Origin: an uncultured Gemmiger sp.
GTDB taxonomy: Bacteria > Bacillota > Clostridia > Oscillospirales > Ruminococcaceae
Reading direction: 5' to 3'
DNA: 64,000 bases
Assembly: GCA_944388245.1 (NCBI GenBank)
Contig: CALXIA010000001.1
Span: 36,474 to 100,473, forward strand
A model generated the notes under the pieces. The model had not been told where the DNA came from. It ran no database searches and saw nothing but the letters and a program-made list of their open reading frames with translations. Of this stretch, positions 2,903-13,446 are shown one piece after another (position 1 is the stretch's first letter; each line of letters begins with the position of its first letter). A program made the position numbers and the translations under genes.

Positions 2903-5900
2903 CTATTGCGGTGCGCGTGGCCCGACAGGTTGCGAAAACAGCCTTTTTCTTCGCCAGAACACGATTCCGCAACCAACGGCGGTGGCCATAAGCCCTATCC
3001 CGGCAAAAATGGTGGTATATACGCCGCCGAAAACCCCGGCGGCGGGCAGATAGGCAATGCCGGTGTTTACTACTGTGTAGGTAACGGAATAGTGGGTTTC
3101 TGCTTCGACGGTATAAGGGGTTGTGACATACAAAGGCTCTTCCAAACTGTTATACCCCTGGGGGGCCCGCAACTCGGTCAAGCGATACAGATACCCCTTT
3201 CCGTCTTCGAATATCCTGGCACCCAGGTTGTAAAACAATGCTTTTCCGTCTTCTTGGGAAATTGCTGTCACGGCGCCAAATTTTGTATCCAAAGCATAGC
3301 TTTTGCCGTTATAGATGATCGTTCCCTGGTCATCCTCCAGCAGTCGCTCCAACTGGAACTGTGCCCCCGCCAGCGGATGCCGGCTGGTGTCCACCTTCTG
3401 CACGATCAATTGGGCCGTGGCCAGATAGACCTCCACCTTTACACTGTCCGAAATCACCAGGCTGCTGCCGGTGGGAGACCAGCCGTCTACATAGTAGTCC
3501 AGATAAAATTGAGAGATCGTCGCTAGATCCAGTGTGTCGGCACCGGCCGCATCTACCGTGAAGCTGGTGGCTGTGCCGTTTTGCATCCGGGTGATGGTCA
3601 TGCCCTTGTACCGCTCATACAAAGCTGCCTGAGCGGGGTTGGTGCTGCCGGAATAGGTGCGGCAGGTCTGCGCCATCATCGCCAAATGATCGTAGGTGGA
3701 TGTCATATCCGTCAGCGAAACGATTTCGCTGAAAACAGCAGGAACCTGGCTGATCGTGATCGCGTTCTCTGGCGAATATCCGCCATTCGTCATCAGGTAG
3801 TAGGTGATGGAGTAGTTGGTCTGGGCGTTATCCCGGACATAGTAGAAGAAGATGTTGTTAGCGGATGCGTTGGTCTGCAACCGAAGCACCTGGCTCCAAT
3901 CTTCATAGACCGAGTAGCCGCTGATGGACGGGGCGTTTTCTACCACCAGTGTGGTCGGGAGATCGTCCACTTTTATCGACTTCTGCTCCTCACTCAGCAG
4001 ATAGGGAGCGGCAATATCCACCTGAAAGGACCGGTCAAAGGTATCCTGATAAGAGTCCAGTACGCCCTCCGCCACCGCCACCGACAGATCGATGGCATAG
4101 ACATTGTAAACCAGTTCATTTACGGGATGGTAGACAAAGAAAGCACAGTACAGGTAGCTGCCGTCCGGCATCTCGGTTCGATAGGTGTTTCCGGTCACCT
4201 CTGTCAGATCGCCGTCCGTGACCGTTTGAGTCCGGGCGTCGGCTTTCAGATCGATCGTGGCGTGAGCGGGCAACCATTTCCTTCCGGCGCTGTCTGCACA
4301 GTATTCCCACGCTGTCTGGGTATAGGTCTTTCCCGTGTATAAGCTGGCCAATTCGTCTTGAAACAGGATGAAATATTCCGTGCCGCCGATGGTGATGGTA
4401 GCAGTATGGTCGTTTACTACGATCGGCTTGCCATCCTTGGGGGTGAACTGGGTCTGACCCTCAAGCTCCGCCTTTTTCACCAGATGGTACACCAAGGCCT
4501 TTGAGTCCCCATCGGGCTCCCAGGCGGCGTAAAGTTTCAAGCCCTGAACGACAACGGAGGCATCGTTGGTGTAACTGAAGCGATAGCCGGTCTGCTCCGG
4601 GTAGTAGAACAACTCGCCGTTTTCATCCTCGTGCAGAAGAAAGGCGTCTTCCACATGATTGAGATACACATAACCCGCCGCATAGGAGGCCAGGCTCTGA
4701 TTTTCCGCCAGAACGTCCTTCAGATAGATCTTGGTTCCGGATGCGGGAACATCGTCAAAGTAGAACCACCGGGCAAAGGTGTATCCGGGACGGACAGGTT
4801 CCGCAGGCTCCTCCAGTACCGTATTGACCGTTGCGTTGATGGTCACATACTCGTTGTGGCTGTACGCGCCGTTGTCGCCCATATAGCAATAGTAGTGATC
4901 CACCAGACGAGTTCCCGTAAAGTCCTCCACACTGATCGCCAGCAGTTCCGCCAGGGAACCGATTTTTCCATTGCTTATATAGTGCTGGGACGCATCATCC
5001 CATTCGGCCACAGCGTCCAAATCACAGGAATACAGATTCTGTATGAACAGCCGGTCGTGTACCTTGGTCTGAAGATACCAATAAAAGCTGGCCTGTGAAT
5101 TCTCCGATACCCTTTGGTGGGGGTAGAACATAAAGATCGTTCCATCCGTTGGATCGGAGTAGGTGGAGAGGGTGTACTCAATCTCTTCCATCCAGATGCC
5201 GCCGTTGAGAACATACGATGTGGCGTACCGGGGGGGAAACCAACCAACATACAGCGCGCTGTCGCCCGCCATAGTCTGCATTTCTTTGTCGTTTGTCCAA
5301 TCAACCGGCATGGTTTGCATGGCGTTGCGGTACCACCGCCAGAAGTAGTATTGGCTTTCGCCGGGAGAATGATAGGGGTACTCCAGATCACCGCCAGTTT
5401 CTGATGTAAGCCAGGCAATGATCTCCTGCTCGGCCAGCGGTGTTAAATGGCCGCCAAAGCGGATGTCTACGAATCCCGTCGCGGTGACCGACTCCCAGCC
5501 CAACTGTTGCAGGGTGTGGACTCCCTCTCCGTAGCTGGGCAGGCAGTCGAAGTCGGTGGTCAGCAGAGCCTCTGGAATGGAATACTTGTCGTGGAGATTC
5601 TGGATGGCCAGCGTGTAAAGTTCTCTGGTGTAGAAGAAATAAATGTTGCCGCCTTTGGCCATGTCCTCTCCGTCGTATGCTGCGCCAGTGGATAGAAACC
5701 CTGGGCGCGACGGCTGGTTTTGCCCGGAACGGGTGGATGTGGAATATTGGATATCGTATGCCGTTGAGTATACATAGACCGTATCCGCCCAGGAAACATA
5801 CTGCCCGTCCGCATATGGAGAAAGGTCCGCTGTTTCGGGATCAAAAGCTTGTACATTGCTGTCGGTGGCCAAGATCGTGGTATCCAGCACCTGAAAAAAA

Positions 5901-8725
5901 TAGTAGTGATACTCGAAAGCGTTGTCGGCCCAATAGGCGACCATTTGATGGGCAGGGGTGCCATCTCCGTTGTCCGGCGCTGCGGTCCAGTTCTCTTCCT
6001 CGTCAACCGCCGCCACTATATTCATATCCATGGTTGAATAGGCGTTCAATGTGTTCTTCTGGCTGTTTCCTTGGGTAAACACATTGCGATAGTAGCTGTT
6101 TTGGTCGGTGCCCATGCTGATATAGTTGTAATGGTTATACGTTCCGGAGGTATTGCTCAATGTAGGCCAGAGGGCGGAGATATCCGCTTCAAAGCGGGCG
6201 GTGAGAGTGTAGACAAAGCAGGTATATGTTCCGGCGTCGTCCCCTTCGCTATCTGTGATCTGTTTTGTGCCGTAGCGTCCCACAGCGGAACGAGGGTCCT
6301 GATCCATGGCCTCTGTGATGCGGTAGATTTTCTGCACGTCTAATTCGCCATAGGTTTCGTGGGAAACCACAGTGGAAGTTACGTCGCCAGAAAAATCCTC
6401 AAAAACAAATTGGTCGACTGCTGTTTCGCTGGCGGACCATTCGCAATTGCTAAAGCCGCCCGGCGTATCTGCGGCTACGCTAAAGGTCTGGTCGTGTTGA
6501 TCCTGCCTTGCCAACACGAATTCCAGCGTGTATAGGTTGCGAGTGTAATAGATGTTGATGGTGGTTGTGCCGTTGCCGTTCACCTTCACGTTAAATGAGT
6601 CTTCGGTAATGGCGTCAGCGATCACGCCTCCGGAGCCTGTAAATCGCGCGTTGCTCACGTTGCCGACACTGATTCTGGTATTGGTCTCGCTATAGGAGAA
6701 GAACGCAGAATAGTCTCCGTCTGTTCCGTAGTGGCTGGCAACCAACGATTTGAATCCGTCGGATACCACGGTCTCGCCGTTGGTTTCGCTTGGCCATCCT
6801 TCCCCGCTGATGGTCACAGTTGATCCCTCCAACCGTACCTCCAACACGCTTTCGGTGGCCACATTGCTCACTGTGGTGGCATAGGCGTTCTGGAAGCTGG
6901 CGGCGTTCCGGCTCTCCACCCAATACAGCAGACGGATGGAGGTAGTGGCAGGACGCCACGTCACCACAGCATACAGATCGTGAGCGGGCATTTGGGGGGA
7001 GGTCTCGCCGTAGGGGCTCACGACTTGGACCAGATCTCCGTTTCCATTCAGTCGATACCAGGTGATGTTTTCCGTTGTTACGGGCTGATAACCGGTGCGG
7101 GTCAACTGCTTTATATAGCCTTCAAGAGAGGGCATCTGCGCGCCAAACAAGATCTTGACCGGGTCGATTTGCACCTCGGTGGTTCCAGTTTGAAAGTAGA
7201 CAAAGTAGCTGGCTCGATCGTAATCAACCCTGACGATAGCGTTCCCGTTCGGGTCGAATCGAACGTTTGGGGCCCCTTCCTGCAATACCACGCCTTCGCT
7301 GATGGCGGATCGCGAGGATGCGCTGATTTGAAATCCCGCAAAACTCACGTCATCTCCCAGCGAGGGAGCGTCCTTGATGGAAATCCTGCTGCCGTATTCA
7401 ATGCTTTGAACGCTGGTTGCTCCGACCTGGATATATCCTTCTTCCGCATTTACTGACTGCTGATAATACTCTACCGTATATGTGATCTGAGCCGGTTTAT
7501 AAATTACGGTCAAGGTCAGAAAGTGGGTAGTGGAGGTATCGTCCACGCCAAACACGGTGTCTACATCCACGGTCACCTTGCTGTCATGCCAGGTAACGCC
7601 GTCTTGAGAGGTGGGGCTCGCCGTGTAGTACGGGATGGAGGGAATCCGGACTGCAAAGGTCAGGAATCCGTTTTGCATGTCGGATTGGGTCTTGGTAACA
7701 GCGAGGGTGTCGCGCGCTTTGGTGCCGTTCTCATAATAGAAGTATATATTGAATACATAGGGCTCTTCCGCCTGGAATTGCGCGGCAAATACGGCATTGC
7801 CCGTTACGATAAAACCGTTTCCGCTGGACATTGGTTTCCAGCCGGCAAAATGCTGCCCGTCCTTTGCGGGGATGGGGCCTCCGTAGGTAAAGTATGGGAT
7901 GCGGTCAAGGGTAAAGGTATAATAGTATGGCGGAGAATCCGTGGCCGCCAGCGGGTGCCGGCTTACACATACGGCTTCGTGCGTTATGCCGTTCAGCGTA
8001 ATGGGCAAGGTGGCCGTGTCACCGGTCCAATCTACGGTGTCCGCCGTCCAGGGTGTGCTGGGATCTGTCCACAGTGTTGCCCCATAAGGCACCTCTACAG
8101 ACCAGAGTTCACCGGTACTTCCTTGAAAAGAAACGGTGTAGGCGGCGATTTGCCACTGGGCGAGAATTGTGGTATCGGCGGTGATGGTAATCGTCTGGCC
8201 ATCGGCGGCCCGGTATTCCGTCTCATCGATTTTCCAAGCGGTAAAGCTGTAGCCGGCTCGATAGGGCTGGTTCGGAAGCAGCCCACCCAGGGTGCTGTCC
8301 AGGGTCAGCAAGATGCCCTGACCCGCCTGTTCTTCAGCTACCGAGCGGGTCCACTGATAGGTGTCGGAGACGGACTGACGCCATCCGGCATTCTGCAAGT
8401 TGTTTGCCTGTCCGCCGTCCAGATTCAGCGTCAGGGTATAAGAAGCCGGTTGAGCAGGCGGCGCCGTATCTATGGAGGAATTGCTGGCCGCGGATGCGTC
8501 GCCCTGTTCGGCGGTGACCGGAGTGCCATCGGCATTCAAGGCGCCTGTACCTTCCCATTCAACATCCAGAGGGGAAGATCCCTTTTCAAATATATCTTCC
8601 TGGAATGTGTCAGGGGGCTGCGCGTCTGAAGGATCCGCCTGCGCCCAAACGCTGAAAGGCAACACCTGCAAAACAAAGCAAAAGGAAACCATAAGCGCCA
8701 AGCATCTATGGCACGTTCTTTTCAT
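2903..8725 (-). CDS. Giant LPxxG-anchored surface protein, probable tip/ancillary pilin
   Basis: Exported protein of 1940 residues: signal peptide (1-29, ending near VWAQA), then many beta-rich repeats resembling InlB B-repeats/Listeria-Bacteroides (Flg_new) modules (for example 'YTLTLNLDGGQ...GYSFTAWK' near residues 95-170, and several later Gly-Tyr-x-Phe-x-x-Trp copies), a C-terminal Cna-B/SpaA domain beginning 'LIVQKVDTSRHPLAGA' with an E-box-like LTELRAPQGY, then the sorting signal LPAAG, a membrane helix and RRKR. The sorting motif departs from LPxTG. Its start overlaps the stop of the upstream sortase by 20 nt, suggesting translational coupling. Probable role: pilus tip adhesin; the ligand is unknown. 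G+C is lower than in the housekeeping genes of the window. Confidence 0.85.
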   Translation of the reverse strand: MKRTCHRCLALMVSFCFVLQVLPFSVWAQADPSDAQPPDTFQEDIFEKGSSPLDVEWEGTGALNADGTPVTAEQGDASAASNSSIDTAPPAQPASYTLTLNLDGGQANNLQNAGWRQSVSDTYQWTRSVAEEQAGQGILLTLDSTLGGLLPNQPYRAGYSFTAWKIDETEYRAADGQTITITADTTILAQWQIAAYTVSFQGSTGELWSVEVPYGATLWTDPSTPWTADTVDWTGDTATLPITLNGITHEAVCVSRHPLAATDSPPYYYTFTLDRIPYFTYGGPIPAKDGQHFAGWKPMSSGNGFIVTGNAVFAAQFQAEEPYVFNIYFYYENGTKARDTLAVTKTQSDMQNGFLTFAVRIPSIPYYTASPTSQDGVTWHDSKVTVDVDTVFGVDDTSTTHFLTLTVIYKPAQITYTVEYYQQSVNAEEGYIQVGATSVQSIEYGSRISIKDAPSLGDDVSFAGFQISASSRSAISEGVVLQEGAPNVRFDPNGNAIVRVDYDRASYFVYFQTGTTEVQIDPVKILFGAQMPSLEGYIKQLTRTGYQPVTTENITWYRLNGNGDLVQVVSPYGETSPQMPAHDLYAVVTWRPATTSIRLLYWVESRNAASFQNAYATTVSNVATESVLEVRLEGSTVTISGEGWPSETNGETVVSDGFKSLVASHYGTDGDYSAFFSYSETNTRISVGNVSNARFTGSGGVIADAITEDSFNVKVNGNGTTTINIYYTRNLYTLEFVLARQDQHDQTFSVAADTPGGFSNCEWSASETAVDQFVFEDFSGDVTSTVVSHETYGELDVQKIYRITEAMDQDPRSAVGRYGTKQITDSEGDDAGTYTCFVYTLTARFEADISALWPTLSNTSGTYNHYNYISMGTDQNSYYRNVFTQGNSQKNTLNAYSTMDMNIVAAVDEEENWTAAPDNGDGTPAHQMVAYWADNAFEYHYYFFQVLDTTILATDSNVQAFDPETADLSPYADGQYVSWADTVYVYSTAYDIQYSTSTRSGQNQPSRPGFLSTGAAYDGEDMAKGGNIYFFYTRELYTLAIQNLHDKYSIPEALLTTDFDCLPSYGEGVHTLQQLGWESVTATGFVDIRFGGHLTPLAEQEIIAWLTSETGGDLEYPYHSPGESQYYFWRWYRNAMQTMPVDWTNDKEMQTMAGDSALYVGWFPPRYATSYVLNGGIWMEEIEYTLSTYSDPTDGTIFMFYPHQRVSENSQASFYWYLQTKVHDRLFIQNLYSCDLDAVAEWDDASQHYISNGKIGSLAELLAISVEDFTGTRLVDHYYCYMGDNGAYSHNEYVTINATVNTVLEEPAEPVRPGYTFARWFYFDDVPASGTKIYLKDVLAENQSLASYAAGYVYLNHVEDAFLLHEDENGELFYYPEQTGYRFSYTNDASVVVQGLKLYAAWEPDGDSKALVYHLVKKAELEGQTQFTPKDGKPIVVNDHTATITIGGTEYFILFQDELASLYTGKTYTQTAWEYCADSAGRKWLPAHATIDLKADARTQTVTDGDLTEVTGNTYRTEMPDGSYLYCAFFVYHPVNELVYNVYAIDLSVAVAEGVLDSYQDTFDRSFQVDIAAPYLLSEEQKSIKVDDLPTTLVVENAPSISGYSVYEDWSQVLRLQTNASANNIFFYYVRDNAQTNYSITYYLMTNGGYSPENAITISQVPAVFSEIVSLTDMTSTYDHLAMMAQTCRTYSGSTNPAQAALYERYKGMTITRMQNGTATSFTVDAAGADTLDLATISQFYLDYYVDGWSPTGSSLVISDSVKVEVYLATAQLIVQKVDTSRHPLAGAQFQLERLLEDDQGTIIYNGKSYALDTKFGAVTAISQEDGKALFYNLGARIFEDGKGYLYRLTELRAPQGYNSLEEPLYVTTPYTVEAETHYSVTYTVVNTGIAYLPAAGVFGGVYTTIFAGIGLMATAVGCGIVFWRRKRLFSQPVGPRAPQ

Positions 8726-9659
8726 GGTTTGTCATTCCTTCTTTCCCAACAGCTTTTTTCTTTTTGAAAGGCCAGATGAGAATTATAGCCGACAGAATGA
8801 TGAGGGGGATGGCCAGAAAGGGAAGCCACTGTTCCAGCTGAATCCTGCTTTGAGAGGATGCGCTTGGCTTTTGTGCCTGGGGGGAAGGGTCAGGGTTCGC
8901 CACATAAAACTCCCGGATGCCATCCGGGAACTCCTCTTTTGACGCTGTACCCTTTACTGCGGTGCAGTATACCACATAGCGATGGGTGCTGACGGCATAC
9001 GGATGACAGGTTATCAGGGTCAACAACTCTTTGCCGTCCTGAATCAACACAGCTTCAATGTCATTAGGGAGGATGATGGCAGTGCTTTCCACCTGATAGA
9101 CCCTCTCCTCCCAATATGTGGTCAAGTATATGAAGTCTCCCGGCTGCAGCCTTTCGATTTCTCGAAAAAAAGCTGTGCCGCTATATCCGCGATGACCAGC
9201 AATGACGCAGTTCGTGTTTGTACCGCTCACAGGCATGCTCGTTTGCCCCAAAACGGCAACGCCTTTTGCCAGATTTTCCTTTGTCGCCCCCAGGTAAACG
9301 GGGAACTCCTGTTCCATGACGGGAATGTGCAACACGGCCACGGCGTCAGCGGCCAATCCGTATTTGTCCAGATCGAAAGCCGGCTGCTCATAACTCCATG
9401 CGTCTGAAAGACCGATTTGCCCGCTTTCATAAAGGGTTCTGTTATACTTCTGCATATCTGTCAGCAAGCCGGAATAATTCTTCTCCGCCGCAGATTCTGT
9501 ACCTGGAAGTCCTTGAATATGCGCTTTCCCTTGTTCAAACTTAGCGATGCTCGCTCGCATCTGCGCTTGTGTTAGCCACCCGAAAACAGGATTGTACAGC
9601 AAGAAGGTGAGGCCCAAAATGAAACATAGGACAGCTGCGATCCCTGTTGTTTTTCGCAT
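8706..9659 (-). CDS. Second sortase of the pilus operon (class C-like)
   Basis: Sortase of 317 residues and first gene of the operon. An N-terminal membrane segment is followed by a lid-like region with Asp-Ala-Trp ('SDAWSYEQP'), a catalytic His in 'IAGHRGYSG', the signature TLITCHPYAVSTHRYVV with the active Cys, and a C-terminal membrane helix followed by a Lys run. The residues around the catalytic Arg differ from the partner sortase ('VVYCTAV' against 'LLVQGSR'), so the two enzymes probably recognise different sorting motifs, perhaps LPAAG and LPQTG. The start follows GAGGATGG at good spacing. The stop overlaps the giant pilin start by 20 nt. Confidence 0.85.
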   Translation of the reverse strand: MRKTTGIAAVLCFILGLTFLLYNPVFGWLTQAQMRASIAKFEQGKAHIQGLPGTESAAEKNYSGLLTDMQKYNRTLYESGQIGLSDAWSYEQPAFDLDKYGLAADAVAVLHIPVMEQEFPVYLGATKENLAKGVAVLGQTSMPVSGTNTNCVIAGHRGYSGTAFFREIERLQPGDFIYLTTYWEERVYQVESTAIILPNDIEAVLIQDGKELLTLITCHPYAVSTHRYVVYCTAVKGTASKEEFPDGIREFYVANPDPSPQAQKPSASSQSRIQLEQWLPFLAIPLIILSAIILIWPFKKKKAVGKEGMTNHEKNVP

Positions 9660-10503: not shown

Positions 10504-10661
10504 GCCTTTTTTCCAAGATCGGCCAAAAAACTTTTTGAGCAATCCAAATTGCGGCCGTGACGAAAAATGACGATTTTTTCTCCTTGCAGTCAGGCGGTGC
10601 CGGGGGTATGCTCAAAAGAGGGAACTTTAGTAAAAAAATATGTGAGGCGGGGTTGTATTTG

Positions 10662-10940
10662 ATGAAACAAAAAGAAATCTGCCGGTTCGTGCACTCGTTT
10701 TCTGCGTTGGGGCACTTGCAGGCAGAGGGGAAGATGGTGTATGCTCTATATGAAGAAGGGCCTCAGAATTGGCGTATTTGCCTGGAGTACCAGCAAAAAA
10801 CGGGATGCTGGGAGGATTCCTGCGTGATCGGGCCGCTGGCCCGGCCGGCGGCTGTACAGCTGGTGCAATGCTTGTATGAAAACGCGGTCTTGCGGGAAAA
10901 CTGGCAGGATGTACTGCATGAGCTGATGCAAAAATTCTGA
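10662..10940 (+). CDS. Small DUF6514-like protein
   Basis: Soluble protein of 92 residues of unknown function. The C-terminal half, with 'LARPAAVQLVQCLYENAVL' and a 'DVLHELM' ending, resembles the DUF6514 pattern of small Clostridia proteins; this is pattern memory, not a search. The chosen ATG at 10662 follows GAGGCGGGG. It lies 21 nt upstream of the Spo0A-like gene on the same strand, so the two are probably co-transcribed, and it may belong to the same regulatory unit. Confidence 0.6.
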   Translation: MKQKEICRFVHSFSALGHLQAEGKMVYALYEEGPQNWRICLEYQQKTGCWEDSCVIGPLARPAAVQLVQCLYENAVLRENWQDVLHELMQKF

Positions 10941-10961: not shown

Positions 10962-11705
10962 ATGCGCGAAACCGACTGTCAGTGGCCCGTACTGAATCTG
11001 TATCTTGCGGAGAGCAATGTCCAACAGCTGACGTTGCTGACAGATTACTTTTCCATGCGCCCTGAATTTGCGGTTCGGGGCACATTTACCGAGGGGCGCG
11101 TGTTGCTGCGCGCGCTGCGGGAACGTCCGGTGGATCTGGTGATCACCTCACTGGAACTCAGGGGCGATATGGACGCCTATGAACTGTTGGTGGCTATGCG
11201 GGAAACGGGGCTGCCCCGTCTTCCCGGCGTGATCGTGGTGTTTGACGCGGAACTGCCCGCTTTGCAAAGCCGATGTTTGCGGGCCGGGGCGGCCTACTAT
11301 CTGGTCAAACCCTATACCTTGCGGCATCTGGCCGATCGGGCGCTGGACGTGGGCGGGAGTCTGGGCGCCGACGTGCGGGACCCGCTGGATATCTGGCTGG
11401 TGCGGGCCGGGCTGAAGCCGGACGACAGCTTCTATCCGTGCTTTCGCCGCTGCCTGCAGGCGGCGATGGCCTGCGGCCCGCACTTCGCGCTGCTCAAACA
11501 GGTTTACATACCCGCCGCCCAGGCCGGGAAGGTCAGCGTTTCTGCGGTGGATACCAGCATGCGGCGCGCGCTGAAAACCTTGGAGAGCCGGGATACCGGG
11601 TTGTACCGGCAGATGTGCGAGCGGTTCGAGCAGGAGCATCCCGGTAAGCGGATGACTAGCAAAACGGTATTGGAGTATATGGCAAATCTGGCGCGGGGCG
11701 GGTAA
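10962..11705 (+). CDS. Spo0A-like response regulator with degenerate receiver
   Basis: Protein of 247 residues. Residues about 10-125 have the receiver fold pattern, but the phospho-acceptor position reads Ser63 ('VDLVITSLEL', where a receiver has Asp), the acidic pair is Glu17-Ser18 and not Asp-Asp, and the switch Thr/Ser after beta-4 is not Thr/Ser. The conserved Lys116 ('YYLVKPY') remains. Residues about 135-245 resemble the Spo0A C-terminal DNA-binding domain ('VSVSAVDTSMRRALKTLE' parallels the helix-turn-helix of Spo0A, and there is a late 'KRMTSKTVLEYMANL'). It is likely a DNA-binding regulator that does not work by Asp phosphorylation. The next gene is a kinase-like protein that lacks its His. 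Confidence 0.75.
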   Translation: MRETDCQWPVLNLYLAESNVQQLTLLTDYFSMRPEFAVRGTFTEGRVLLRALRERPVDLVITSLELRGDMDAYELLVAMRETGLPRLPGVIVVFDAELPALQSRCLRAGAAYYLVKPYTLRHLADRALDVGGSLGADVRDPLDIWLVRAGLKPDDSFYPCFRRCLQAAMACGPHFALLKQVYIPAAQAGKVSVSAVDTSMRRALKTLESRDTGLYRQMCERFEQEHPGKRMTSKTVLEYMANLARGG

Positions 11706-11732
11706 AGCAGCTTATTTTGCGGAGGTATGAGT

Positions 11733-12542
11733 ATGGGTGACCCCAGGAATGTACAGGATCCGGAACAACACGCGCAGGCTTTTTTGAACAGCTTCTGCCA
11801 GGATATTGAGAGCCCGCTGAATGTGATCCTTACCGGCACGGAACTGCTGGCCGAGGCTGGCCGCCGCAGTCCCGGCTGCTATACCCCGCAGCAGGAGCGC
11901 GCGATCCAGAGCATCCAGGACAGCGCCGCTGTTCTGGGGCGGATGGCGGAAAATATTCTGGACGCCTACCAGTGCCGCGCCGGCGGTATGACCACCCGGC
12001 GGCAGGCGCTGGAACTGGTTTCGCATTTTTCCCAGCTGGCGGAGCTGGTGCGTCCCTGCGCCGCCCGCCAGGGGGTGGAGCTCTCCTTCCAGGCGCAGGC
12101 GGAAACGCTGGTCGTTATGACCGACCGGGTGCTGGCGGACCGGGTCGTGCTGAATCTGCTCTCCAACGCGGTATACCATGGCGGAGCCCGGGGCCATGTG
12201 TGGATCGAATTGAAACCGGACGGGGCACAGTGCCGCTTCCTGGTGCGGGACGACGGCCCCGGTCTGCCCGCGGCGATGGTCGCCCAGCTGAATGAGGACG
12301 CGCCGGCGCCGCCGCCCGCCACCCGCGGCGGCGGGTTGGGGCTGTATCTGTGCCGGGAGTTCTGTCTTCTATTGGGCTGGCGCATGCGCCTGCAGACCGG
12401 CCCGGAGGGCACGGCGGTGGAACTGACCATCCCCGCCGACTGGATGAACGCCGGGGGCGAGCTGCGCTCCACCCCGGTCAACGCCCTGCTGGAGGCGGAC
12501 GATATGCGCCGGATGGTCCGGCGGGAATTTTCTCAGCTGTAA
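11733..12542 (+). CDS. Histidine-kinase-like protein without the phospho-acceptor His
   Basis: Soluble protein of 269 residues with no membrane or obvious sensor domain. A DHp-like helix region (about 15-75) reads 'FCQDIESPLNVIL' where active kinases have S-H-E-x-R-x-P-L; the His is Gln23. The ATPase domain is well preserved: N box 'NLLSNAVYHGG', G1 'DDGPGLP', G2 'GGGLGLYLC'. It probably binds ATP but cannot autophosphorylate at the usual site. The start at 11733 has GGAGGT six nt upstream; the ATG at 11727 directly abuts that site and is less likely. It is 27 nt after the Spo0A-like gene and followed by a strong terminator. Confidence 0.75.
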   Translation: MGDPRNVQDPEQHAQAFLNSFCQDIESPLNVILTGTELLAEAGRRSPGCYTPQQERAIQSIQDSAAVLGRMAENILDAYQCRAGGMTTRRQALELVSHFSQLAELVRPCAARQGVELSFQAQAETLVVMTDRVLADRVVLNLLSNAVYHGGARGHVWIELKPDGAQCRFLVRDDGPGLPAAMVAQLNEDAPAPPPATRGGGLGLYLCREFCLLLGWRMRLQTGPEGTAVELTIPADWMNAGGELRSTPVNALLEADDMRRMVRREFSQL

Positions 12543-12738: not shown

Positions 12739-13446
12739 ATGGCGATACGATACAAGCGGATTCTACTCAAACTCAGCGGCGAAGCGCTGGCCGGCGACAA
12801 GGGCGTCGGCTTTGATGAACCCACCCTGGAGGCGATCTGCGGGGGGATCAAGCAGGCCCGGGATCTGGGCGCCCAGATCGGCATCGTGGTGGGCGGCGGC
12901 AACTTCTGGCGGGGCCGCTCCAGCGGCAAGATGGAGCGCACCTGCGCGGACAAGATCGGCATGCTGGCCACGGTCATGAACTGCCTGGCGGTGGCCGACG
13001 CGCTGGAGCAGCAGGGGATGGAGACCTGCGTGATGAGTTCGCTGGCCATGCCGCAGGTGGCGCAGCCCTTTACCCGCGGCGAGGCGGTGCGCTATCTGGA
13101 GGCCGGCCGCGTGGTGCTGTTCGGCGGCGGCACCGGCAACCCCTTCTTCTCCACCGACAGCGCCTCGGCGCTGCGGGCGGCGGAGATCGGTGCGGATGTG
13201 ATGTTCAAGGCCACCATGGTGGACGGCGTGTACAACAAGGATCCCAAGAAGTATCCCGACGCTGTCAAGTACGATACCCTGACCTTCAGCCGGGTGCTGG
13301 AAGAGAAGCTGGGCGTGATGGACGCTACCGCCGCCGCCCTGTGCCGGGAGACCCACATGCCGGTGCTGGTGTTCGATATGCGGGACCCGGCCAACATCGC
13401 CCGCGCCGTGCAGGGCGAAGCGATCGGCACCCTGGTGAGCGAGTAA
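12739..13446 (+). CDS. pyrH: UMP kinase
   Basis: Cytosolic hexameric kinase phosphorylating UMP to UDP in pyrimidine synthesis. It is 235 residues, the usual length. The N-terminus 'KRILLKLSGEAL' is the amino-acid-kinase phosphate-binding segment, followed by 'VVGGGNFWRG', 'FGGGTGNPFFSTDSASALRA' and 'VDGVYNKDPKK', all PyrH hallmarks. It opens the conserved pyrH-frr-uppS-cdsA-dxr-rseP-ispG-polC series. Confidence 0.97.
   Translation: MAIRYKRILLKLSGEALAGDKGVGFDEPTLEAICGGIKQARDLGAQIGIVVGGGNFWRGRSSGKMERTCADKIGMLATVMNCLAVADALEQQGMETCVMSSLAMPQVAQPFTRGEAVRYLEAGRVVLFGGGTGNPFFSTDSASALRAAEIGADVMFKATMVDGVYNKDPKKYPDAVKYDTLTFSRVLEEKLGVMDATAAALCRETHMPVLVFDMRDPANIARAVQGEAIGTLVSE

Follow-up and report, generated by a model that had tools for sequence, protein, structure and literature searches.

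A conserved operon of gut Ruminococcaceae joining a Spo0A paralogue to a kinase-like protein, with phosphotransfer residues intact, half lost or fully lost

Described systems and the operon in the window

Among the closest described systems is the repurposed pseudo-histidine kinase of Caulobacter, presumably DivL. According to the passages of the two papers cited here, the histidine kinase fold of this protein serves to sense a response regulator and not as a kinase, and what it senses is the phosphorylation state of that regulator (PMC4211667, PMC5361649). Asp-less receivers (ALRs), such as those of ChxR and RitR, form the second point of comparison, as they lack the phospho-Asp and keep a DNA-binding domain; Ser has been reported, in the part of the source drawn on, among the common phospho-Asp substitutes in ALR response regulators (PMC4395418). 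Asp-less receivers and pseudo-histidine kinases are thus each already known (PMC4395418, PMC12632262, as excerpted), and the switching of pseudo-receivers has been termed a mystery in an excerpt of the latter source. Among the matches listed from the open-licence literature, a scope with subscription papers mostly outside it, there was no report of the operon described below or of the accompanying Spo0A substitutions. What appears to be new, among those same matches, is a conserved operon that pairs an Asp-less receiver with a pseudo-kinase, has canonical relatives and a DUF6514-like partner, and is preceded by a conserved operator-like element.

The DNA analysed is a 64,000-nucleotide stretch from an uncultured Gemmiger sp. 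(GCA_944388245.1, contig CALXIA010000001.1, positions 36,474 to 100,473), hereafter the window. The operon lies on its forward strand and has a conserved order: a gene for a DUF6514-like small protein (SM, 10662-10940), a Spo0A-paralogue response regulator (RR, 10962-11705), a histidine-kinase-like gene (HK, 11733-12542) and then, usually, pyrH. A first-pass annotation of the window had described the RR and the HK; the SM gene and the operator and promoter region were absent from it.

The RR is a protein of 247 aa encoded by an open frame. Its receiver (ITSLELRGDMDA) had been annotated as having Ser at the phospho-acceptor position and Glu-Ser for the acidic pair, which the alignment confirms: Ser63 falls in the phospho-Asp column and E17-S18 in the columns of the acidic pair, V93 occupies the Thr/Ser column, and K116 is retained. 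The phospho-Asp and acidic pair of a functional two-component system are therefore not found in this protein (S63; E17-S18), which is a pseudo-receiver in the sense of a PF00072 match without the D (Response_reg, 2.3e-9 in a Pfam scan). The AF2 model reached a mean pLDDT of 84.7, and chains of the Spo0A receiver 1qmp were among its best 20 Foldseek matches (TM-score 0.89-0.91, target length), the best 50 comprising receivers and other full-length regulators.

The case for a Spo0A_C domain comes from profiles and not from the fold search. For the window RR alone, Pfam returned no Spo0A_C match; across the modules defined below, 27 of 35 RRs matched at E<=0.1 (best 1.4e-22). Profile-profile comparison of the C-terminal domain with Spo0A_C gave 87% for the nearest six RRs, 98% for the window's group of 22 and 99.5% for four canonical modules, with the receiver, used as negative control, at 0.2%. 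Judged by these profiles, the C-terminal domain of the window RR is of the Spo0A_C-like DNA-binding type, which places the protein in the Spo0A superfamily as a paralogue. The Spo0A equivalog model TIGR02875, for which more than 200 bits over the whole model are expected, gave it 40.6 bits over the receiver half only. Module RRs resemble Spo0A (TIGR02875) in their receiver fold, in the Spo0A_C-type domain by profile and in tandem TGNCGAA-like sites, but they stand on a separate side of the tree and their recognition helix has diverged; moreover, the window RR has lost the phospho-Asp, the second acid and the Thr, and is linked to kinase-like and DUF6514-like genes.

The HK is encoded by an open frame and has neither a sensor region nor the H-box His. 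Gln stands at the His column of its H-box (FCQDIESPLN), as Gln23 counted from Met 11733, the start in most congeners' HK, or as Gln25 from a possible longer start, ATG 11727. The first-pass annotation had combined Gln23 with an intact ATP site, and both parts stood: by sequence motif, the N-box (LLSNA), G1 (DDGPG) and G2 (GGGLGLY) are all in place, so that of the marks of a functional two-component kinase the ATP box is present and the H-box His is missing. A Pfam scan gave HATPase_c at 2e-17 and HisKA at 1.4e-5 (25.5 bits, with a cut-off of 26.9), and the protein corresponds to a pseudo-histidine kinase, defined by the kinase fold without a phosphorylatable His. With the residues present, Gln23 and Ser63, His-to-Asp phosphotransfer within the pair is not possible, in agreement with the earlier annotation. 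In the excerpt available from a published survey, 0.9% of HisKA domains lacked the His and 2.0% of receivers the Asp (PMC12632262), base rates that put the missing residues of the window pair beyond chance. The HK differs from the Caulobacter pseudo-kinase in being short and without a sensor, and in having as partner a receiver whose usual phosphorylation site is missing. What sets the RR apart from ChxR and RitR is the pseudo-kinase encoded next to it in a conserved operon, together with intact relatives in which stages of the loss can be seen.

The SM gene stops 21 bases 5' of the RR gene and encodes 92 aa with a predicted beta4-alpha2 fold. Its length and C-terminal motif are similar to those of DUF6514 (PF20124), and a single hhalign comparison of the two gave 95.7% (E 9.5e-9). 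The Pfam cut-off for DUF6514 was not passed (best E 0.24, in one of the six SM members scanned), and SM is a remote relative of DUF6514 only. The AF2 model of SM (pLDDT 90.1) found no fold match in Foldseek at E<=0.001, and a sequence search for solved structures gave no relative at E<=10. The genomic setting is different as well, since SM sits in an RR-HK operon, whereas neither RR nor HK was found in the flanks (up to about 1.5 kb per side) of 30 DUF6514 loci.

The module family and the loss of His and Asp

The SM profile matched 36 places, distributed over 34 of the family's 294 genomes and 15 of its 126 genera. At 34 of these places the gene was accompanied by an RR resembling Spo0A and by an HK-like gene. 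Together with L101, an RR-HK pair without a called SM, this gives 35 modules in the family; counts for RR and HK therefore refer to n=35 and those for the operator to n=34. Because module collection relied on open ORFs, in genomes of which several are incomplete drafts, an interrupted RR or HK could have been missed. The SM alignment, from which long and short ORFs were excluded, covers 25 of the 34 proteins. Relatives of the window's module include those of three Gemmiger congeners (among them Gemmiger sp. An120), of Faecalibacterium sp. UBA7177 and of an Oscillospiraceae bacterium. The conserved downstream neighbour pyrH (UMP kinase; 12739-13446, forward strand, in the window), which we do not count as a module component, follows the module on the same strand in 26 of the 35 regions; it is 2.3 kb off in L071, and some regions end too early for it to be seen.

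Two SM-family genes, L073 (G081) and L095 (G171), had no adjacent RR called and were excluded from the module count. One of the 36 SM matches, at 3965-4171 of L089 (G119), carries an in-frame TAG in an otherwise canonical module. At the level of the order, the SM profile was found in nine of 394 genomes, three of them outside the family; loci L145, L146 and L147 from this search were excluded from all counts. L145 (5163-6272; G614, another family of the order) holds SM and an Asp-keeping Spo0A-like RR, with no HK found in the 10 kb region, and is possibly an orphan or an ancestral arrangement.

When the 35 modules were sorted by residue, nine kept both Asp and His, 17 kept the Asp and had lost the His, eight had lost both, and one (L096) had lost the Asp with the His present. 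In total, the His was lost in 25 and the Asp in nine, which indicates sequential rather than simultaneous loss; the losses, which the first-pass annotation had read as suggesting co-evolution of one adjacent pair, are not strictly paired. In a module tree built without the catalytic columns, the window's group of 22 was separated from the other 13 with support of 100/99. Twenty-one of the 22 are without the His and all nine Asp losses fall inside this group, while the other 13 all have the Asp and nine of them the His. Bona fide Spo0As fell on the side of the 13 in the RR tree (SH-aLRT 86), so that the group of 22 is a clade if Spo0A is taken as outgroup. Residues N-terminal to the H-box, taken from the longest ORF, numbered 157-350 in seven of the nine modules with Asp and His and 20-91 in 24 of the 25 His-less ones. 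The His column of His-less HKs is occupied by Q, A, N, E, G, S, Y, C, M, K or R, with one deletion. Some HK-like partners may have lost ATP binding besides the His, judging from degenerate motifs: L075 and L078 are affected in the N-box as well as in G1, L077 and L067 in G1.

The minimum number of changes on the tree was four for the His, four for the Asp and five for the second acid, and with four changes each for His and Asp the independence of the losses is only weakly tested. Tree-aware paired tests were not significant for His against Asp or for His against the second acid (three usable pairs each on supported branches, four on all branches), nor for the second acid against the Asp (four and five pairs), which speaks against a strong claim of coupled loss. 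A Fisher test, which ignores relatedness, gave p=0.015 for His against the acid at position 18 (D/E counted as acid) and p=0.23 for His against Asp. The first-pass annotation had also asked whether Ser63 and Gln23 are fixed together. Within the genus Ser63 was found in four of four orthologues and Gln in three (the window and two of the three congeners); G202 (L096/L110) has His with Ser63, and joint fixation is rejected by this genome. By parsimony the His of L096, congeneric with three His-less modules, is a reversal, its codon being CAT where the others have CAG.

Within the family, a single adjacent pair can thus be followed from intact through half-lost to fully lost forms, together with a candidate operator, which makes both the order of the losses and the control that replaced phosphotransfer directly testable. 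On balance we consider it probable that the window pair belongs to a module that regulates itself, works without phosphotransfer and is controlled through protein binding. The module would descend from an ordinary two-component system, of which the kinase, in the window's lineage, would have shed its N-terminal sensor region and the His, and the receiver its second Mg-binding acid and finally the phospho-Asp; the probable order is sensor, then His, then Asp. The proteins, the DNA-binding domain and the tandem operator would have been retained through these losses. The RR would bind two 0A-box-like repeats just 5' of the -35, probably as a dimer, and control its own operon, and the ATP-binding pseudo-kinase and/or SM would bind the RR and set its activity, so that the signal would travel through protein-protein contact, possibly nucleotide-gated, instead of phosphate. 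Dimer binding, the protein contacts, ATP gating and the direction of control are all inferred here. ATP gating is plausible in the window module; it would not be general, because of the degenerate motifs of L075, L078, L077 and L067.

The main rival to the phosphate-free reading of the window is a possible substitute acceptor at D69. Residues 69-72 of the RR (DMDA, window 11166-11177) include this clade-specific Asp beside the lost phospho-Asp, and D69 is found in all nine Asp-less module RRs and in 20 of 35 overall. The RR would then still be controlled by phosphate, received at D69 or D71, or at Ser63 from a Ser/Thr kinase, and the HK-like protein would act as phosphatase or adaptor. The retention of K116 in the window, in a column with Lys in 29 of the 35 RRs, fits such displaced phosphorylation, as does the description of Ser, in the cited part of the source, as a common and possibly modified Asp substitute (PMC4395418). 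However, 11 modules that retain Asp63 have D69 too, so that it is not a replacement that arose with the loss of the Asp; the window RR is without the second Mg-binding acid and the Thr, and the neighbouring kinase is without its His in 25 of 35 modules. We regard continued control by phosphate as unlikely.

A candidate operator and the bona fide Spo0A

Upstream of the operon, a putative tandem 0A-box-like operator was identified at 10558-10574 (forward strand), consisting of box 1 (TGACGAA, 10558-10564) and box 2 (TGACGAT, 10568-10574), 10 bp apart. It is followed by a predicted sigma-A-type promoter at 10584-10612 (forward strand), with a -35 of TTGCAG (10584-10589), a 17-bp spacer and a -10 of TATGCT (10607-10612). 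Box 2 starts 16 bp before the -35, with 9 bp between its end and TTGCAG. When the upstream regions of the genus's four genomes are aligned, the operator and promoter block is kept in all four amid diverging DNA, the -10 being TATGCT or TATCCT. The 0A box has been given, in the cited extract, as TGNCGAA (PMC7643835), which box 1 matches exactly; box 2 has one mismatch, and AGACGAT, found in two congeners, has two.

A composite pattern was scored in 34 modules, its box following the literature and its spacing the Gemmiger alignment; the other modules had been viewed before scoring, which makes the test not fully blind. The window scored 17/18. Eleven of the 34 modules, namely the four of the genus and seven of the 30 others, scored at least 15/18 with the same spacing, against a Markov null with a mean of 0.03 and a maximum of 1 in 200 simulations, 0/34 on the minus strand and 0/2,262 other tiles. 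The latter control excludes module promoters; a tile control that includes them gave 10/2,080. Upstream regions were set to the aligned SM start, and ORF or trimmed starts gave the same 11/34. At a score of at least 14/18 there were 17 modules, against a null mean of 0.2, and the remaining 17 of 34 lay below it. When promoter spacing was left out, a scan of both strands for tandem boxes picked out 10 of the 34 modules (null mean 0.68); on the coding strand it gave 10 modules against 0.94, with two on the minus strand, and some of these matches are probably chance.

At the corresponding place, several other modules carry 10-bp direct repeats of their own, such as CGACGGAAAACGACGGA in L071, L072 and L076, and the repeats vary by module clade (GACGAA, GACGCA, CGACGG, (A/G)TCG). 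The exact tandem site of the window, TGNCGAANNNTGNCGA, occurs once in the window's 75%-complete genome, before the operon itself. The Spo0A-type regulon proposed in the first-pass annotation was sought through the tandem pattern with at most one mismatch: 21 genome matches (one exact, 20 with one mismatch) stood against 23 in the reversed control, so that only the exact match is meaningful. A narrower pattern gave three matches against two in the control.

A bona fide Spo0A above the family cut-off was present in 31 of the 34 module-bearing genomes, the window's included; the counts that follow use one per genome and leave out that of G031 (n=30). A quick tree, in which several branches are long, separates the 35 module RRs from these 30 Spo0As by a single branch with SH-aLRT 100. 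The canonical module RR of L089 (G119) also passes the Spo0A cut-off (213.9 bits), so that the canonical modules stand close to Spo0A, the line between paralogue and Spo0A being thin at L089. In the window's genome, Spo0A was located at G000:C20:20610-21278 (L138 1486-2250; L148 4596-5360, on the minus strand in both).

Since a separate Spo0A exists and the exact tandem site is found, in the 75%-complete genome, only before the operon, autoregulation of the operon is suggested, as far as sequence goes, as the operator's likeliest use. The operon could instead be a target of the bona fide Spo0A, with the module acting downstream, for example through heterodimers with Spo0A. The boxes do resemble TGNCGAA, Spo0A accompanies the module in 31 of the 34 genomes, and its recognition stretch (SRVERAIRHAIEVAW) is unchanged in all 30 Spo0As compared. 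Yet this same stretch is invariant while the repeats differ by module clade, which makes the module RR the likelier binder, and a target of Spo0A is also at odds with the absence of the exact tandem pattern from the rest of the window's 75%-complete genome. We hold control by Spo0A to be distinctly unlikely, and infer that the module RR binds the operator.

Unexpectedly, the bona fide Spo0A of the genus itself reads Glu in place of the phospho-Asp (VLLEAFMPGLDA) and is without the second acid, in four of four genomes. Glu at this position was found in seven of the 30 Spo0As, including those of G018, G130 and G073, with four changes on a quick tree. Only three of the 30 have D or E at the position of the second acid. 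Asp-to-Glu alone often fails to activate receivers, with Spo0A among the examples in the cited passage (PMC4395418), so that the Glu of the genus's Spo0A should not simply be read as "always on". The window's genome is among the 33 of 34 module-bearing genomes in which SpoIVA was found (31 over the cut-off); a Spo0A with Glu where SpoIVA is kept bears on Spo0A-type control in gut Ruminococcaceae. Extending protein-binding control from the window pair to the family, we propose, tentatively and as the less probable statement, that a Spo0A-derived module of gut Ruminococcaceae may have been converted repeatedly from His-Asp phosphotransfer to an autoregulated, binding-gated switch, in which a pseudo-kinase and a DUF6514-like protein act on an Asp-less paralogue. 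The conversions would lie within a wider abandonment of Spo0A phosphorylation in carriers of sporulation genes, the paralogue having taken Ser and Spo0A Glu in the window's genus.

Selection in the genus and neighbouring observations

SM, RR and HK are open frames without stops in all four genomes of the genus. Values of dN/dS in these four genomes were 0.08-0.13 for SM, 0.07-0.19 for RR and 0.16-0.30 for HK, the fastest-evolving of the three module genes, compared with 0.05-0.07 for pyrH. Because the frames are open and dN/dS lies at 0.07-0.30, the module is under purifying selection in the genus and not in decay, and for the genus the first-pass annotation was right to set random decay aside. 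It had named intact relatives together with frameshifts as the sign of decay: none is frameshifted within the genus, and one congener has the His. Simple decay, that is relaxed selection on a redundant two-component system heading for loss, would fit the drift of the His column to many residues, the presence of the SM profile in few of the family's genomes, the faster HK and the one SM match with an in-frame stop, but it is rejected for the genus by the open frames and by dN/dS well below 1, is opposed by a gene order and an operator-like element conserved across divergent genera, and seems to us very improbable. Seen in the sequences, a phosphate-passing switch appears to have survived the stepwise loss of its phosphate-carrying residues, with its genes and candidate operator conserved.

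Two further observations were made. In L147 (4537-5362; G532), a DUF6514/SM-like gene lies directly 5' of an nrdR-like gene, identified as such by eye from its translation. In the window, positions 2903-9659 (minus strand) encode a secreted protein of 1,940 aa with repeats and, at its C-terminus, a membrane anchor, followed by a sortase-like ORF (8706-9659); from a by-eye reading of the translation, this is probably a surface protein accompanied by a sortase of its own.
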